Source: Fidelibacterota bacterium
GTDB taxonomy: Bacteria; Fidelibacterota; UBA8477
DNA length: 12,113 nucleotides
Direction of reading: 5' to 3'
Assembly (NCBI GenBank): GCA_021734045.1
Contig: JAIPJR010000073.1
Span: 1-12,113, forward strand
A program made the position numbers and the translations under genes. How positions within the stretch are numbered: position 1 is the stretch's first letter; every line of letters begins with the position of its first letter. Shown here piece after piece: positions 1,825 to 12,037 of the stretch. The notes below the pieces were generated by a model. That model searched no databases. It was given only the letters and a program-made list of their open reading frames with translations, and was not told where the DNA came from.

Positions 1825-3135
1825 ATGAAAATTGATTCTCCCAATGGAAAATTAGGTGTCTTGATTCCGGGCCTGGGCGCTGTATCCACCACATTTATTG
1901 CCGGTGTTGATGCAATTATGAACAACCGTACGGCACCTCTGGGCAGCGTTTCCCAGATGGCGACTATCCGGTTGGGGAAACGGACTGAAGATCGCAATCC
2001 CAAAATCAAAGACTTCGTACCATTGGCCAATCTGGAGGATATGGTATTTGGCGCTTGGGATTTGTTTCCCGACAATGGTTATGAGTCCGCTGCCAACGCT
2101 CAGGTGCTCTCCTCGGAGGATTTGGAAGCCGCTAAGCCGACCCTGGAGGCGGTGAAGCCCATGAAGGCTGTTTTCGATCGCCAGTATGTGAAAAAACTGG
2201 ATGGCCCGCATGTGAAAAAGGGGGCGACCAAAATGGAGCTGGCCGAGCAATTAATGGAGGATATCAGCCGCTTCCGGAAATTGAATCAGACCTCCCGGGA
2301 GGTGATGATTTGGGCTGGTAGCACCGAGATCTATATCGAAGCAGGCGATGTACACAGTTCCTTGAAGAAATTTGAAGCGGGTCTTCGCAAAAATGACCCG
2401 CAAATCCCGTCCAGTATGATCTACGCCTACGCCGCTTTGAAATCGGGCATTCCATATATCAATGGATCGCCCAATCTCTCGGTTGATGTGCCGGCCATGC
2501 ATGAGTTGGCGGATGAAATGGGGGTGGCCATTGCAGGGAAGGACTTCAAAACCGGGCAGACTTTATTGAAAACCATTCTGGCACCGGGACTGAAAGCCCG
2601 CATGCTGGGTGTGGACGGCTGGTTCTCCACCAATATACTGGGAAACCGGGATGGGGAAGTGTTGGACGATCCCATGTCCTTCAAAACCAAGGAGGTTTCC
2701 AAAAAGGGCGCGCTGGATTACATTTTCCAACCCAAAGTCTATCCCGAATTGTATAAAGATTTGTACCACAAAGTTCGTATCAACTACTACCCGCCTCGGG
2801 GGGATGCCAAAGAGGGCTGGGATAACATTGACATTTTTGGCTGGATGGGCTATAAAATGCAGATCAAAGTGGACTTCCTATGCCGTGATTCCATCCTGGC
2901 GGCACCCGTGGTGCTGGATTTGGTGTTATTCACCGACCTGGCTCAGCGCGCCGGCATGAAAGGCATTCAGGAATGGCTTTCATTCTATTTTAAAAGCCCG
3001 ATGGTTGCGCCGAAATTATATCCGGAACACGACCTGTTTATCCAACTCACCAAGTTGAAGAATACGCTGCGCTGGATGATGGATGAAGAGCCCATCACCC
3101 ATTTGGGACACGAGTATTACGATGGTTATCAATAA
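1825..3135 (+). CDS. ino1: myo-inositol-1-phosphate synthase (inositol-3-phosphate synthase)
   Basis: The predicted reaction is NAD-dependent isomerisation of D-glucose 6-phosphate to 1D-myo-inositol 3-phosphate in the cytoplasm (EC 5.5.1.4). The 436-residue protein has an N-terminal Rossmann glycine motif (PGLGAVSTT, 15-23), the signature AGKDFKTGQT at 237-246 with the lysine region used in catalysis, STNILGNRDGEVL (268-280), equivalent to the eukaryotic 'SYNHLGNNDG' segment, and KVDFLCRDSILAAPVVLDL (348-366). Its length matches the shorter prokaryotic enzymes. AGGTGA 4 bases before the ATG supports the start. The stop codon (3133-3135) nearly abuts the CDP-alcohol phosphatidyltransferase gene, the next enzyme in inositol-phospholipid synthesis, which strongly suggests an operon for membrane inositol lipids. 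Solute (di-inositol-phosphate) synthesis is less likely because no inositol-1-phosphate cytidylyltransferase is seen nearby. Confidence 0.95.
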   Translation: MKIDSPNGKLGVLIPGLGAVSTTFIAGVDAIMNNRTAPLGSVSQMATIRLGKRTEDRNPKIKDFVPLANLEDMVFGAWDLFPDNGYESAANAQVLSSEDLEAAKPTLEAVKPMKAVFDRQYVKKLDGPHVKKGATKMELAEQLMEDISRFRKLNQTSREVMIWAGSTEIYIEAGDVHSSLKKFEAGLRKNDPQIPSSMIYAYAALKSGIPYINGSPNLSVDVPAMHELADEMGVAIAGKDFKTGQTLLKTILAPGLKARMLGVDGWFSTNILGNRDGEVLDDPMSFKTKEVSKKGALDYIFQPKVYPELYKDLYHKVRINYYPPRGDAKEGWDNIDIFGWMGYKMQIKVDFLCRDSILAAPVVLDLVLFTDLAQRAGMKGIQEWLSFYFKSPMVAPKLYPEHDLFIQLTKLKNTLRWMMDEEPITHLGHEYYDGYQ

Positions 3136-3140
3136 TGGAT

Positions 3141-3147
3141 GAGGTGA
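3141..3147 (+). promoter_or_regulatory. Ribosome binding site choosing the ATG at 3156
   Basis: GAGGTGA lies 8 bases before the ATG at 3156. The earlier in-frame ATG at 3135, which overlaps the upstream TAA by one base, has no comparable motif before it. The later start is therefore preferred. Confidence 0.6.
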
Positions 3148-3155
3148 AGGATACC

Positions 3156-3776
3156 ATGAGTACGCGCGATAAGATTGTGAAAATTTATTACTCTTACGTT
3201 CGTTTGCTCATCAAACTCACGCCCTTAAAAGACCTGAATCCTAATACCATTTCCGTACTGGCCTCCATCATTGGGGTAGTGGCCGGGTTGGCATTTCTAA
3301 CGGGTCACAGTTTCACAGCGGGCATTTTTCTACTCATCAGTGGAGCACTGGATACTTTCGATGGCACCGTAGCCCGAATGAACAACCGCGCCACGAAATT
3401 CGGTGCCATTGTGGACTCCAGCCTGGATCGGTATGTGGAATTCGTCATTTTCCTGGGCATCATCAATTACTACCGCAACACGGAAATGTTTTACTGGGGC
3501 TTTGCCGCTTTAGCCGGCTCAATCATGGTGAGTTATGCCCGTGCCCGTGCCCAGACGCTGGGCGTGGATAAGATTGTGGGCTTAATGCAGCGGGCCGAGC
3601 GACTGATCCTGCTCTCACTGGGCGCCATTGTGAATACATTTGTAGCCATGGCGTACGACACGGATGTGGTTTTGCGGACCACCATTATCCTACTGGCCAT
3701 CGGTGCTAATTTCACGGCATTCCAACGGATTATGGTGGTGAAAAAAACTGAAGATGGATCATCCGGTGATTCATAA
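3156..3776 (+). CDS. CDP-alcohol phosphatidyltransferase, probable phosphatidylinositol-phosphate synthase
   Basis: The predicted membrane enzyme joins inositol-phosphate to CDP-diacylglycerol, releasing CMP. The full family signature D-x2-D-G-x2-A-R-x8-G-x3-D-x3-D is intact: Asp66, Asp69, Gly70, Ala73, Arg74, Gly83, Asp87 and Asp91 (206-residue numbering). A following SYARARAQTLG segment (126-136) and MQRAERL (144-150) resemble phosphatidylinositol-phosphate and archaetidylinositol-phosphate synthases. About six membrane helices are apparent. An alternative ATG at 3135 would add seven residues. The gene follows inositol-phosphate synthase by about 20 bases, so its substrate is very likely inositol-phosphate, not glycerol-phosphate; this rests on context plus motif. 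The 3' end overlaps the next gene by 23 bases. A di-inositol-phosphate-phosphate synthase is an alternative but would normally sit beside a cytidylyltransferase. Confidence 0.88.
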   Translation: MSTRDKIVKIYYSYVRLLIKLTPLKDLNPNTISVLASIIGVVAGLAFLTGHSFTAGIFLLISGALDTFDGTVARMNNRATKFGAIVDSSLDRYVEFVIFLGIINYYRNTEMFYWGFAALAGSIMVSYARARAQTLGVDKIVGLMQRAERLILLSLGAIVNTFVAMAYDTDVVLRTTIILLAIGANFTAFQRIMVVKKTEDGSSGDS

Positions 3777-4260
3777 TCTGCTGGCAATTGTCAGCATTAT
3801 TATTGCCCAATTTATTCTGGGGAAGAAAGCTGCCTTCCCACTGGGATTGGTCCTTGGTTTTTCAGCCTGGAGTATTGCTGCCATCGTCATCCTTTGTGAT
3901 ATGGTGCTCATGTTCATCCTTCTGAATCTTTTTGCCGTATCCATTTCCCGTCTCAAATGGATGCGCCTGGTGCGAAAACGTTTCGAATGGGCACAGGAAT
4001 GGCTCGCCGAGGGACGCTGGACCCGAAAACTTATCCCGGTGGGCTGGTTGGGTGTGGTGGCGATTACGGCAATCCCACTGGCTGGCGGCGTTTGGTCAGG
4101 CGTGGCTTTGTCGCGCACCATGGCCATGACTCGTAACCAATCCATCATTACCATTACGCTGGGAATCATCCTTGGCTGCGCCATATTCCTGTTCGCAGCA
4201 TTGGGTGTGATGCATGTGGTGAGTATTCCGTCAGAACCGGTAATGATTCCGGAGCTGTGA
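3754..4260 (+). CDS. COG2426 / PF06695 'small multidrug export' family membrane protein
   Basis: This is a 168-residue polytopic membrane protein with hydrophobic segments near 8-22, 26-62, 95-121 and 129-157. The segment AITAIPLAGGVWSGVALSR (103-121) matches the conserved Pro/Gly re-entrant-like motif of COG2426 (PF06695) proteins. The family name 'small multidrug export' is a database label and the substrate is not established. Structure-prediction work has, to my recollection, linked PF06695 to the DedA/VTT fold, whose members move phospholipids or undecaprenyl phosphate. The start overlaps the preceding phosphatidyltransferase by 23 bases, so the two are probably translationally coupled. 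A role in handling the lipid product is an inference from this context. An ORF on the opposite strand covers nearly the same bases but has no family features. Confidence 0.83.
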   Translation: MDHPVIHNLLAIVSIIIAQFILGKKAAFPLGLVLGFSAWSIAAIVILCDMVLMFILLNLFAVSISRLKWMRLVRKRFEWAQEWLAEGRWTRKLIPVGWLGVVAITAIPLAGGVWSGVALSRTMAMTRNQSIITITLGIILGCAIFLFAALGVMHVVSIPSEPVMIPEL

Positions 4261-4330
4261 TTCAACTTTAACCACGAGTTCCACTCGGATAATAAAGTCG
4301 GGTAACACCCGGTTAAGGAAGGAGATACTC
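4261..4330 (+). promoter_or_regulatory. Short leader with small hairpin before the 60-residue gene
   Basis: The 70-base spacer contains a compact inverted repeat CGGGT-aac-ACCCG at 4299-4311, a promoter-like GATAAT at 4288-4293 with a poor TTTAAC 15 bases upstream, and the strong ribosome binding site AAGGAAGGAGA (4315-4325). The hairpin ends four bases before that site and could modulate initiation, but it is short. There is no terminator-like T run. Confidence 0.25.
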
Positions 4331-4513
4331 ATGAGAAAAAAGGAATATAATCTGGGTCTTGCATTCGCTCTGGGAACCAGTGTGGGTACAGCCATTGGAA
4401 CGGCGCTAAAAAGTCTGCCTATGGGGATTGCCATTACTGTGGCCATGATAATTGTATTTTACCAGGCATTCAAAAAGCAGCGGTGTGGAAAGGATACGCA
4501 TGCATCCCAATGA
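4331..4513 (+). CDS. Small glycine-zipper membrane protein (60 aa)
   Basis: This 60-residue protein is supported as real by a strong AGGAGA ribosome binding site 5 bases before its ATG and by its stop overlapping the next gene. After a basic N-terminus (MRKKEYN) it has a Gly/Ala-rich stretch (8-26) with regularly spaced glycines (G9, G15, G19, G23), then a hydrophobic helix (about 31-46), then a polar tail. The pattern resembles small glycine-zipper membrane proteins seen in many bacteria as hypothetical proteins. Such zippers pack helices into oligomers or membrane assemblies. No enzymatic residues are visible and no function can be assigned. Its place between the COG2426 and NTF2-like genes of the inositol-lipid cluster suggests an accessory membrane role, but this is inferred only from position. 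Confidence 0.7.
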   Translation: MRKKEYNLGLAFALGTSVGTAIGTALKSLPMGIAITVAMIIVFYQAFKKQRCGKDTHASQ

Positions 4514-4970
4514 GGCTTTAATCCTCCAATTATACACCGGTTTACAGAACCTGGATGGGGAAGCCATGGGAGCTTGTTATCACCCGCAGGCACAGTTCTC
4601 AGATCCGGTATTTCCGGATTTACATGGCAAGGCGGTGGGCGGGATGTGGCGCATGTTGTGTCAATCTGCCACCGACCTGTCGGTCTCTTTCCGGGATATC
4701 CGGGCTAATGACAATACCGGACAGGGATATGTGGAGGCAGTTTACACTTTTTCTACCGGCCGGAAGGTGCATAACAGCATTGCATCGCGATTTGAATTTC
4801 TGGATGGAAAAATTATCCGCCAGAAGGACGATTTTAATTTTTGGCGCTGGAGCCGGATGGCGCTGGGCATGACGGGCTTCCTACTGGGTTGGACGCCCTG
4901 GCTGCAACGGAAGGTCCAGAAACGGGCTGCGCGGCAACTGGAGCGCTACCTGGCGCGCAAAAGCGTGTAA
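4500..4970 (+). CDS. NTF2/SnoaL-like protein with Trp/Arg-rich C-terminal tail
   Basis: A 156-residue protein starts at the ATG at 4500, preceded 5 bases upstream by AAGGA (4490-4494). The in-frame ATG at 4452 would lie deep inside the previous gene and has no such site. The first about 110 residues fit the SnoaL-like/nuclear transport factor 2 fold: an N-terminal helix, ACYHPQAQFSDPVF (25-38) and a beta sheet ending DGKIIRQKDDFNFWRW (102-117). Residues 112-150 are rich in Trp, Arg and Lys around a hydrophobic stretch (ALGMTGFLLGWTPWL), a pattern that could bind the membrane surface. Related proteins are annotated only as nuclear transport factor 2 family. The gene overlaps the upstream small membrane protein by 14 bases, indicating coupled translation. 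A specific ligand or reaction cannot be named. Confidence 0.82.
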   Translation: MHPNEALILQLYTGLQNLDGEAMGACYHPQAQFSDPVFPDLHGKAVGGMWRMLCQSATDLSVSFRDIRANDNTGQGYVEAVYTFSTGRKVHNSIASRFEFLDGKIIRQKDDFNFWRWSRMALGMTGFLLGWTPWLQRKVQKRAARQLERYLARKSV

Positions 4971-4976
4971 TACAAC

Positions 4977-5004
4977 TTGAACGCTCCTTAATTATTTCTA
5001 ATAT
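4977..5004 (+). promoter_or_regulatory. Possible sigma-70-type promoter before the Aur1-like gene
   Basis: TTGAAC (4977-4982) and TAATAT (4999-5004) are separated by 16 bases, 42 bases before the next ATG. This would let the PAP2/Aur1-like gene be transcribed separately from the upstream cluster. The match is by eye and the organism's promoter consensus is unknown. Confidence 0.35.
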
Positions 5005-5045
5005 CCTGCCATGCTGATCCAACTTTCGGAAAATTATTCCACACG

Positions 5046-6029
5046 ATGACGAATCACCTCAAAGCCTTGGGTCGGCGCATTCAGGGATTGCGCATCGAGG
5101 AGGTCATTTTCCTGATCTTCCTGATTCCCTCCCTCATCATTACACTGCGAGCCAATTGGTACTTCTACACCACACCGGGTGAACGCTCGGTGAAGATTGA
5201 GGGTGGGCTCTGGCGAATTGGGATAACCATCGTCTTGTTGCTGGTGTTTTACTGGTTCCTGTGGTATCGACCGGATAAGCGCATGTTTCGTTTCATCCGG
5301 GATATCGCACCTTTCCTGTTTGCTATTCTTATCTACACCAACCTTCACGATACCATTCACTTCGTCAATCCCCATGATGTTCATTATCAGCTCAATGCCA
5401 TTGATGAATGGATGTTTGGGGGTGTGTCGCCCACGGTCTGGGCAGAACAGTTTTATAAGCCCTGGCTCACCGATTGGTTGTCATTCGCCTACATGAATTA
5501 TTTCTGGATTACGGTGATTTTGGTGCTGGTGCTCTATTTTAAAAAGGAACACCGACAGTTTCGCACCATTATGCTCACCATGATCCTGTGTTACTATTTT
5601 GGGTACCTGCTGTACATTATTTTTCCGGCCGCGCCACCTCGACTGGCCATTGCGGATCAATACACAATAAATATTTACAAGGGCACATCCCTGGTTTCTG
5701 ATGGCGCGCGGGCATTGGTACACATCAGCGCTTCCTCAGCCCGGGGTGCTTTCCCATCGCTGCACTGTGCCATCACATTTATGACCTTGGGAATGGCCTG
5801 GCGGTTCCACAAAGGGCTGTTCTGGCCGTTCCTACCCATCGGGATTTCTCTTATCACGGCTACCGTGTATCTGCGTCATCATTACGTGATTGACATTATC
5901 GCCGGACTCGCCCTGTGTGTTTTCGCCTGGTATGTAACGCCCGGTCTGGATCGCTGGTGGCGAAATCGTCAAAAGCGGCAGGGGATTATCTCCAAATCTC
6001 CACCGGTACTGAAACCGGGCGAAAAATGA
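5046..6029 (+). CDS. PAP2-superfamily, Aur1/inositolphosphotransferase-like membrane enzyme
   Basis: This 327-residue polytopic membrane protein has helices near 18-35, 58-74, 86-101, 148-166, 174-194, 242-257 and 262-275, with further hydrophobic sequence to about 297. It carries both catalytic motifs of the Aur1/PAP2_3 (PF14378) group: GAFPSLHCA (234-242) with His240, and YLRHHYVIDIIAG (275-287) with His279 and Asp283. These closely resemble fungal inositol-phosphorylceramide synthase motifs (FPSLHSG and THHYFVD). Family members transfer inositol-phosphate or another phosphoryl head group from one lipid to another, or hydrolyse lipid phosphates, at the outer face of the membrane. Near the inositol-phosphate and phosphatidylinositol-phosphate synthase genes, it is a candidate for head-group transfer to ceramide-like acceptors or for dephosphorylating phosphatidylinositol-phosphate. 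The choice between these cannot be made from sequence. The ribosome binding site is weak. Confidence 0.87.
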   Translation: MTNHLKALGRRIQGLRIEEVIFLIFLIPSLIITLRANWYFYTTPGERSVKIEGGLWRIGITIVLLLVFYWFLWYRPDKRMFRFIRDIAPFLFAILIYTNLHDTIHFVNPHDVHYQLNAIDEWMFGGVSPTVWAEQFYKPWLTDWLSFAYMNYFWITVILVLVLYFKKEHRQFRTIMLTMILCYYFGYLLYIIFPAAPPRLAIADQYTINIYKGTSLVSDGARALVHISASSARGAFPSLHCAITFMTLGMAWRFHKGLFWPFLPIGISLITATVYLRHHYVIDIIAGLALCVFAWYVTPGLDRWWRNRQKRQGIISKSPPVLKPGEK

Positions 6030-9934: not shown

Positions 9935-12037
9935 GTGCTTACCATGAAGAAACATCTTTTGTCCATTTTCATCCTGCTTTGCGTTGTTCAACAAACGCTT
10001 GCCAATGGCGTGGCGGTGGTTGATGCTGCCACACAAACCTATTTTCAACTGGATTCCAGCCTGGTAACCACCGAGGTGGAGGGCGATGTGGCCATCACCA
10101 CGATGCGGAATGTTTTTATCAATACCGATACAACCGATACCGTGGCGGTTTTTGCTTTTCCCGTTGATTATCATGCCAGCGCCACGGGCATTCGCTGGGA
10201 CGCGGGTGCCGGTTGGCATGCTGCCACCATGATTTCCCAAGCGCCTACCGATACCCTGCCCCGTTCCGGTCCTATTGCCGCCGCGCTGAAAACCTACCTG
10301 GGATACGCTCCCTTCTATTTCGCCATTCCGGACACCATTCCCGCCGGCGCTACCTTGACGGTGGAATTCACCTATGTGGAACTGCTGGACTACAGTCACG
10401 GTGTAGTGATTTATCAATTTCCAAATCAGTATGCCTTGATCCAGGATTCCGTTTTAACCCGGCAGGAATTATCCTGGTCGCTCACCAGTCTGCGGACCAT
10501 CGACACGCTGGTGATATTAAGTGCGCAAAACCAGGAATTGGTGACTTATACCGATCATGCAGCTTCAGTGAGCCTTTCCGCGGACGATACCACGGCATTT
10601 GATGATTATCGCATTCTCTACCGGTTGAGTGGGGACGAGTTGGGTGTCTTTGCCTACTCCACCTATCTGGACCCGGTTGATCTGCCCGATGAATGGCCCG
10701 GCTATTTTGCCCTGCAGATTGAACCCACGCCGTATGACACGATTGACGCGATGGCGAAAAACTTCACCCTCATGATTGACCGCTCCGGGAGTATGTCCGG
10801 ACAGAAGATTAATGATGCTAAAAATGCCGCCGCTTATATCGTAAGTAACCTGGATACTATGGACCATTTTAATGTCATTGATATATCGGACGGGATCGGG
10901 AAATTCCGCCCGGGATTGGTACGCTTTACCCAAACTGCCCGGGATTCGGCCCTGGCCTTTATTGCGGCGCTGGACGCCCGTGGCGGCACCAATCTCAGTG
11001 GGGCATTCGAAGCGGTGATACCTGCTTACACCGGCGCTGATTCCACCCGTGCCAATATTATAATGTTCTTCTCCGACGGTTTACCCACATCCGGAATTAC
11101 CACCACGGGCCAACTCCTAAACCGGATAAATGACCTGGTGAATGAAACGGGTGAAATTATCTGCATTTATACCCTGGCCATCGGTGAGGATGTGGATTGG
11201 GAATTCTGCACCTCCCTGGCGCAAAATCATAATGGGTTTACCCAATTCGTGGATCCATCGAACATTATCGCCACCGCCAGCAGTTTTTACCAGTCGGTGC
11301 GATCACCGGTGCTGATTCGACCTGAGCTCACCTTCACGCCTGCCGACGCGCTGGTTGAACTGAACCCAGCCGTCACACCCAATTTTTTCGAGGGGGAACA
11401 GGTGCTGGTTTCCGGTCGCTATACCGATCCGGGTGCTATTTCCCTCACCATTTCGGGAACTGCCTTCGGGATGCCATTCTCGCAGGATTTTAATTTCACT
11501 TTGGCATCGACACCGGCTCCTGAAAATCAATTTCTTATGAAAATCTGGGCCAAGCAAAAGATCGAATCGCTGCTTTTTGACTACTTCCTTCATGGGGCTG
11601 ATGCAGCCACTGCCCAGTCACTGGAGGAGCAGATCGGCTGGCTCAGCTTGAACTACAATATTGTGAGCCCCTTCACCAGTCTTAGCATTCCCGATAATCT
11701 ATTTACTGGCATCGCGAACGAGACTGGTGAGGATGAACCGAATGGCGTTGCGCAAGCCTTCGAATTAATGGGCAATTTTCCCAACCCTTTCAATGCTGCC
11801 ACCACCATTCGATTTCGTCTCAACGATGCCCATTCCGGCCTGGTGAAGGTGAAAATCTACAATACACTGGGGCAACTCGCGCGTGTGCTGACACGCTATG
11901 TGGATTCGGCAGGTAAATACCAACTAACCTGGGATGGAACGCTGATGGATGGCAGTGCCGCACCGTCCGGTACTTACATCTACATGGTGGATTTCGGGAA
12001 CGCGTTGCTCGGTGGTCGGATGAGTTTGATTAAGTAA
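9935..12037 (+). CDS. Secreted VIT and von Willebrand factor A domain protein with C-terminal sorting-type domain
   Basis: This is a protein of about 700 residues. The GTG at 9935 has the better spacing from GAGGGG; the ATG at 9944 (MKKHLLSIF) gives the more typical signal peptide and is equally possible. Numbering is from the GTG. After a signal peptide (to about residue 24) comes a VIT-like region (25-170). A von Willebrand A domain (about 276-455) follows with an intact metal-ion site: Asp282, Ser284 and Ser286 in DRSGSMSG, Thr352 and Asp381. WAKQKIESLL (538-547) and LEEQIGWLSLNYNIVSPFTS (563-582) match the conserved tail of inter-alpha-trypsin-inhibitor heavy-chain-like proteins. The end (614-700: NFPNPFN, VKIYNTLGQ, WDGTLMDG, PSGTYIYMV) is the FlgD-like/type IX secretion-type C-terminal domain of FCB bacteria. 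It is probably a surface or secreted adhesion protein. Confidence 0.92.
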   Translation: MLTMKKHLLSIFILLCVVQQTLANGVAVVDAATQTYFQLDSSLVTTEVEGDVAITTMRNVFINTDTTDTVAVFAFPVDYHASATGIRWDAGAGWHAATMISQAPTDTLPRSGPIAAALKTYLGYAPFYFAIPDTIPAGATLTVEFTYVELLDYSHGVVIYQFPNQYALIQDSVLTRQELSWSLTSLRTIDTLVILSAQNQELVTYTDHAASVSLSADDTTAFDDYRILYRLSGDELGVFAYSTYLDPVDLPDEWPGYFALQIEPTPYDTIDAMAKNFTLMIDRSGSMSGQKINDAKNAAAYIVSNLDTMDHFNVIDISDGIGKFRPGLVRFTQTARDSALAFIAALDARGGTNLSGAFEAVIPAYTGADSTRANIIMFFSDGLPTSGITTTGQLLNRINDLVNETGEIICIYTLAIGEDVDWEFCTSLAQNHNGFTQFVDPSNIIATASSFYQSVRSPVLIRPELTFTPADALVELNPAVTPNFFEGEQVLVSGRYTDPGAISLTISGTAFGMPFSQDFNFTLASTPAPENQFLMKIWAKQKIESLLFDYFLHGADAATAQSLEEQIGWLSLNYNIVSPFTSLSIPDNLFTGIANETGEDEPNGVAQAFELMGNFPNPFNAATTIRFRLNDAHSGLVKVKIYNTLGQLARVLTRYVDSAGKYQLTWDGTLMDGSAAPSGTYIYMVDFGNALLGGRMSLIK

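Follow-up and report, generated by a model that had tools for sequence, protein, structure and literature searches.

A conserved four-gene cluster for probable inositol-phospholipid synthesis in a Fidelibacterota bacterium, with a divergent COG2426 protein and an Aur1-like enzyme

The stretch of DNA analysed here, henceforth the window, comprises 12,113 nucleotides (contig JAIPJR010000073.1 of assembly GCA_021734045.1, our contig C40) of a metagenome-assembled genome (MAG) from a Fidelibacterota bacterium, 2.54 Mb long and 92% complete. Its closest named relatives are MAGs of uncultured marine Candidatus Neomarinimicrobiota, one of which encodes an Aur1-like protein 96% identical to that of the window, in agreement with the assignment to the Fibrobacteres-Chlorobi-Bacteroidetes (FCB) group made in an original prediction from the nucleotide sequence. 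Between positions 1825 and 6029 six genes follow each other on the plus strand, and the same prediction had proposed that they make up a cluster for the synthesis of inositol phospholipids, or possibly inositol sphingolipids. Few bacteria make inositol lipids; the gene clusters for them described in the literature that we found belong to actinobacteria and Bacteroides. The gene families, the sequence motifs and the conservation of a core of four genes bear out the inositol-phospholipid proposal: the cluster is real, conserved, and related to that of Bacteroides yet distinct from it. No earlier description of this combination of four genes was found in the open-access literature.

The first gene (1825 to 3135) encodes a myo-inositol-3-phosphate synthase of the Ino1 type (MIPS, 436 residues; PF07994, E=5.8e-97; PF01658, E=9.4e-32), the sole PF01658 copy in the genome. 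It is followed by a class I CDP-alcohol phosphotransferase which we identify as a phosphatidylinositol-phosphate synthase (PIPS; 3135 to 3776; PF01066, E=5.5e-15), by a divergent membrane protein of the COG2426/PF06695 family (3754 to 4260; E=2e-12, 48.2 bits against a gathering cutoff of 30.7), by a Gly-rich membrane peptide of 60 residues matching no family significantly (4331 to 4513), by a SnoaL/NTF2-like protein with a hydrophobic C-terminus (4500 to 4970; PF12680, SnoaL_2, E about 6.8e-12 to 8.7e-12) and by a putative Aur1-like lipid phosphotransferase of the PAP2_3 family (AUR1L, 327 residues; 5046 to 6029; PF14378, E=2.1e-26). The MIPS and PIPS genes touch, with TAATG at their junction, or leave a gap of about 20 nucleotides if PIPS starts at the ATG at 3156, which comparison with relatives makes likelier than 3135; PIPS and COG2426 overlap by 23 nucleotides. 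Genes that touch or overlap in this way form an operon-like arrangement. A good Shine-Dalgarno sequence (GGAAGGAG) lies just 5' of the peptide gene, and the NTF2 gene is likelier to start at the ATG at 4500 than at the TTG at 4452, the listed start of its reading frame. Codon comparison between the window and a sister genome revealed purifying selection on AUR1L (88 synonymous changes, 14 non-synonymous) and on the NTF2 gene (24 and 11), which excludes chance reading frames, and hardly any on the peptide (4 and 6). The six genes are thus found where they had been predicted. Scanning the window for promoters gave 11 promoter-like matches against 6.9 in shuffled sequences (standard deviation 2.2), nothing usable, and terminator matches stayed at chance level.

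The catalytic signature of PIPS, DxxDGxxAR...GxxxDxxxD, is intact, as had been claimed, with all eight residues present (D73/D76/G77/A80/R81/G90/D94/D98). Furthermore, R153 and R198, invariant in 14 sequences, align with the residues that bind inositol phosphate in the Renibacterium enzyme RsPIPS (R153/R191), and the nearest solved structures include the phosphatidylinositol phosphate (PIP) synthases of Renibacterium and Mycobacterium. Against NCBIfam models the protein scores 142 bits as an archaetidylinositol-phosphate synthase, 119 bits as a BT1523-type enzyme and 111 bits as a PIP synthase, all below the curated equivalog cutoffs, versus 26 and 21 bits on the models for PgsA, the phosphatidylglycerol-phosphate (PGP) synthase. 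Because of these profile scores, and because the genome has a separate PgsA (on another contig, beside its single PgpA), identity as a PGP synthase was rejected.

The AlphaFold model of AUR1L (pLDDT 81, pTM 0.83) matches the Aur1 structures 9vj4 (Z 19.0, rmsd 3.8 over 262 residues) and 9ivc (Z 17.3, 269 residues); LpxE comes next (Z 13.2 over 162 residues), and the PAP2 phosphatases rank below both Aur1 structures. The catalytic triad H240/H279/D283 is invariant, and the motifs FPAAPP, PSLH and ATVYLRHHYVID match FPAAPP, PSLH and STMYLTHHYFVD of Aur1. In PAP2 phosphatases the corresponding motif is SRx5Hx3D, the Arg of which binds phosphate. The third motif of AUR1L is of the Aur1 type, with Thr273 at the site of that Arg. 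An Aur1 fold combined with an Aur1-type third motif devoid of the phosphatase Arg favours a role as a lipid phosphotransferase, as far as can be judged from sequence and model. Close to the cluster, on the opposite strand, many sister-family genomes encode another Aur1-like protein, a divergent paralogue with about 40% identity (L094:3668-4696, L030:3349-4335, L102:8132-9109), whose gene adjoins one for a GNAT acetyltransferase in L094 and L102.

The core order MIPS-PIPS-COG2426-AUR1L is uninterrupted in nearly all sister-family loci; it is kept across genera and turns up in almost every relative sampled from the order. Between the window and the sister-family clusters identity reaches about 76-79% for MIPS, about 76% for AUR1L, about 53% for PIPS and about 45% for COG2426. 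In Calditrichota the order is AUR1L-PIPS-MIPS-COG2426 at one locus (L047), and the same four genes are rearranged at another (L119). The peptide and NTF2 genes, by contrast, are confined to the genus of the window: the NTF2 gene, absent from the sister-family and Calditrichota clusters, is a genus-level insertion, while the peptide, present in a sister genome (L028) and with no space left for it between COG2426 and NTF2 in a congener (G002), is likewise of genus level, and probably not a core part. The six-gene order that the original prediction expected to be conserved thus reduces to four genes, and, among the three inserted genes that it took for possible unrecognised components, COG2426 qualifies, whereas the peptide and the NTF2 gene do not.

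PIPS was found in 31 of 40 Calditrichota genomes, with MIPS adjoining it in the loci read. Most of these pairs sit in a housekeeping neighbourhood (RsmI, Tmk and a Ctp-type protease, as named from sequence), the same that surrounds the pair in family f3 of the Neomarinimicrobiota, and this suggests an old locus shared by both phyla (L091, L093, L097 and L141-L160). In one of these loci (L093:4389-4622) an intact PIPS adjoins a MIPS frame of 77 residues with most of its middle gone, through deletion or assembly error. In three Calditrichota genomes a cluster-type COG2426 adjoins MIPS-PIPS, with AUR1L adjacent in two and on another contig in the third. That MIPS-PIPS stand alone in such housekeeping surroundings in many Calditrichota and in family f3, and that COG2426 and AUR1L are each sometimes missing, would fit a situation in which the phosphatidylinositol (PI) made by MIPS-PIPS is simply a membrane lipid, with AUR1L and COG2426 as neighbours whose envelope functions are independent of it, such as recycling of undecaprenyl phosphate. 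We find this very improbable: the four genes remain together despite rearrangement in two phyla, the COG2426 subfamily of the cluster is found nowhere else, and AUR1L occurs only in those Calditrichota genomes that have PIPS (10 of 10; Fisher p 0.08, a value to be taken loosely, like all those given here, because related genomes are not independent).

PF06695 proteins of the phylum fall mainly into two groups, an ordinary one scoring about 75-127 bits and a divergent one at 31-53 bits; a few further low-scoring copies (in G025, G055 and G067) sit outside the cluster and were placed in neither. All 18 members of the divergent group lie inside the cluster, and all 18 Neomarinimicrobiota genomes concerned have AUR1L. 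Co-occurrence of the two genes gives a Fisher p of 9e-22 in the phylum, and p of 0.012 in Calditrichota, where COG2426 of the cluster type is present in 3 of 10 genomes with AUR1L and in 0 of 30 without. Among the Neomarinimicrobiota and Calditrichota genomes examined it was never seen in the company of MIPS-PIPS only, an argument against its taking part in PI synthesis itself. The cluster COG2426 protein is a dedicated part of the system. As for its function, PF06695 is homologous to DedA (PMC7818093), and it is on that paper that the link rests here; members of the DedA family act as flippases of undecaprenyl phosphate or as phospholipid scramblases (PMC10127716). The predicted helices (4-22/24-33/38-66 and 88-106/112-122/127-155, in a model of medium confidence, pLDDT 77) would be compatible with the inverted repeat of broken (re-entrant) helix and transmembrane segment typical of DedA, and the conserved residues comprise a Lys-Lys pair at 24-25, an acidic residue at 49 and Gln19. 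Membership of this superfamily suggests a translocator of PI or PIP, which would take the place that PgpA and GtrA have in loci of the Bacteroides type.

Neither the window nor the loci of relatives contain a PgpA-type PIP phosphatase, unlike the Bacteroides locus with its BT1525, and the single PgpA of the genome lies apart, beside PgsA. One might then ask whether COG2426, or AUR1L with its PAP2 fold, is the missing phosphatase, converting PIP to PI with no transfer of the head group at all: PAP2 enzymes include PGP phosphatases, and ceramide would not be needed, as befits the sister family discussed below. Yet 21 Calditrichota genomes have PIPS and neither AUR1L nor COG2426, so that synthesis of PI or PIP there is independent of both, and COG2426 as an obligatory PIP phosphatase is disfavoured on this ground. 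Moreover, no His is conserved in COG2426, nor can a phosphatase motif be recognised there, and AUR1L, without the phosphatase Arg, matches Aur1 far better than PgpB or LpxE. A phosphatase role for either protein appears improbable to us, and the simplest candidate for this step is probably the unlinked PgpA.

There remains the nature of the acceptor. Serine palmitoyltransferase (SPT), for which a check had been recommended, is indeed encoded in the window's genome (G000), on another contig, with 457 bits to the Sphingobacterium enzyme against 330 for the next-best enzyme type, and 547 bits on the SPT model NF047600. Adjoining it (L084:2781-4098) are genes for a 126-residue protein of unknown nature and for a phytanoyl-CoA dioxygenase (PhyH), of which the sphingoid chain is a possible substrate. 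In the sister family, which keeps the full cluster (17 genomes with AUR1L, all of them MAGs, several at least 90% complete), the absence of SPT is uniform. There the general alpha-oxoamine synthase model matches one enzyme per genome, and in the four loci scanned this enzyme is Kbl: one scores 675 bits as a glycine C-acetyltransferase versus 341 as SPT, comparison with a solved Kbl gave 571 bits, and the gene adjoins that of a short-chain dehydrogenase/reductase (SDR) protein resembling threonine dehydrogenase (Tdh-like). These scores and this neighbour made us reject the enzyme as SPT; the SPT model, run on six genomes of the family, returned only scores in the Kbl range (322-344 bits).

The part of the original prediction that allowed for an inositol sphingolipid is therefore tenable in the window's genus, where the presence of SPT makes ceramide a possible acceptor, and fails in the sister family, so that a ceramide pathway does not accompany AUR1L wherever it occurs. 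Such a pathway is what one would expect if AUR1L were an inositol phosphorylceramide (IPC) synthase, its end product phosphoinositol dihydroceramide and COG2426 an accessory, in the manner of Bacteroides. The Aur1 fold and motifs argue for this, as do SPT in the window's own genus and in 9 of the 10 Calditrichota genomes with AUR1L. Against it stand the sister family, with only Kbl where examined, two further genomes without SPT (G062 and G193), and the lack of any association between AUR1L and SPT (Fisher p 1.0 in the phylum and 0.66 in Calditrichota). We consider it doubtful that AUR1L is an IPC synthase. An enzyme that remains about 76% identical between genomes with SPT and genomes without it suggests an unchanged reaction, and across the clade ceramide of the cell's own making is probably either not the acceptor or not the sole one.

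Putting these elements together, MIPS would convert glucose-6-phosphate to inositol phosphate, which PIPS, at the cytoplasmic face, would combine with CDP-diacylglycerol to yield PIP. A housekeeping phosphatase, probably PgpA, would dephosphorylate it; the cluster COG2426 protein may then bring PI, or else PIP, across to the outer leaflet, where AUR1L, as its fold and motifs suggest, would transfer the phosphoinositol group of PI to an acceptor lipid via a phosphohistidine intermediate. We hold with moderate confidence that the four genes form an operon of this kind, with translocation by COG2426 and phosphoinositol transfer by an Aur1-type enzyme. A more specific version, with an acceptor that is a non-sphingoid lipid and a dedicated PI flippase of the DedA superfamily to feed the transferase, seems to us unlikely; if correct, it would add a new class to the inositol lipids of bacteria and provide the first bacterial translocator specific for PI. 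In B. thetaiotaomicron, deletion of the gene for the GtrA-like protein BT1524 raised PI and lowered IPC (PMC8791184), which could be explained if a translocator supplied PI to a transferase that faces outward.

Several points weigh on the other side. A second study of the BT_1524 deletion saw no change by thin-layer chromatography (PMC9246714). Seven Calditrichota genomes, together with G062, have PIPS and AUR1L and no cluster COG2426, which is thus not obligatory; in one of these Calditrichota (G191, L048:6971-7894 and L147) AUR1L is distant from MIPS-PIPS, an indication that an Aur1-like enzyme is able to work without COG2426. A fold search of the PDB with the COG2426 model gave no informative match, all E values being at least 1 and all Z scores under 5; DedA structures were absent from the matches, which shows nothing either way. 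Finally, AUR1L fails the curated model for PI-dihydroceramide synthases of the BT_1522 type (PhinosDhcerSyn; 31 bits for a cutoff of 480), and it is too distant from characterised enzymes for its acceptor to be predicted.

Two other genes of the window deserve a word. Near the lipid genes, at 2-508 on the minus strand and truncated by the contig edge, lies that of an integral membrane acyltransferase related to TMEM164 (TIGR02206, scoring above its cutoff). At 9935-12037 on the plus strand, a 700-residue von Willebrand-type protein is encoded that has a VIT-like domain and a C-terminal sorting-like one, and the sister genome has it too.

How does this cluster compare with what is known? The actinobacterial pathway (RsPIPS/MtPIPS) likewise makes PIP from CDP-diacylglycerol and inositol-1-phosphate, with the same binding arginines; we know of no actinobacterial cluster that includes an Aur1-like enzyme and COG2426. 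Yeast Aur1, the IPC synthase, shares with AUR1L its fold over about 265 residues and the motifs FPAAPP, PSLH and HHYxxD, but only about 20% identity in structural alignment, and the sister family is unable to make ceramide by known enzymes. The alternative cluster of Bacteroides vulgatus and Prevotella also has MIPS and a CDP-alcohol phosphatidyltransferase. It comprises in addition a nucleoside triphosphate (NTP) transferase and a haloacid dehalogenase (HAD) hydrolase (PMC9246714), both of which the window cluster lacks. Closest is BT_1522-BT_1526 of B. thetaiotaomicron, where MIPS is grouped with a PIP synthase whose catalytic signature is the same, an Aur1-like transferase of the PAP2 type and one small membrane protein. 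There, however, the PgpA-type BT_1525 and the GtrA protein BT_1524 occupy the place taken in the window by COG2426 of the DedA superfamily, as again in the Bacteroides-type locus of a Saprospiraceae genome (L049, PIPS-AUR-PgpA-GtrA), and the window-type cluster, with an AUR1L that scores weakly on the BT_1522-type model, is not tied to SPT. Here the inositol-lipid pathway appears in two FCB phyla, in distinct form, and two questions become testable: by which route PI made at the cytoplasmic face gets to transferases that face outward, and which role an Aur1-type enzyme plays in a bacterium without a known ceramide-initiating enzyme.

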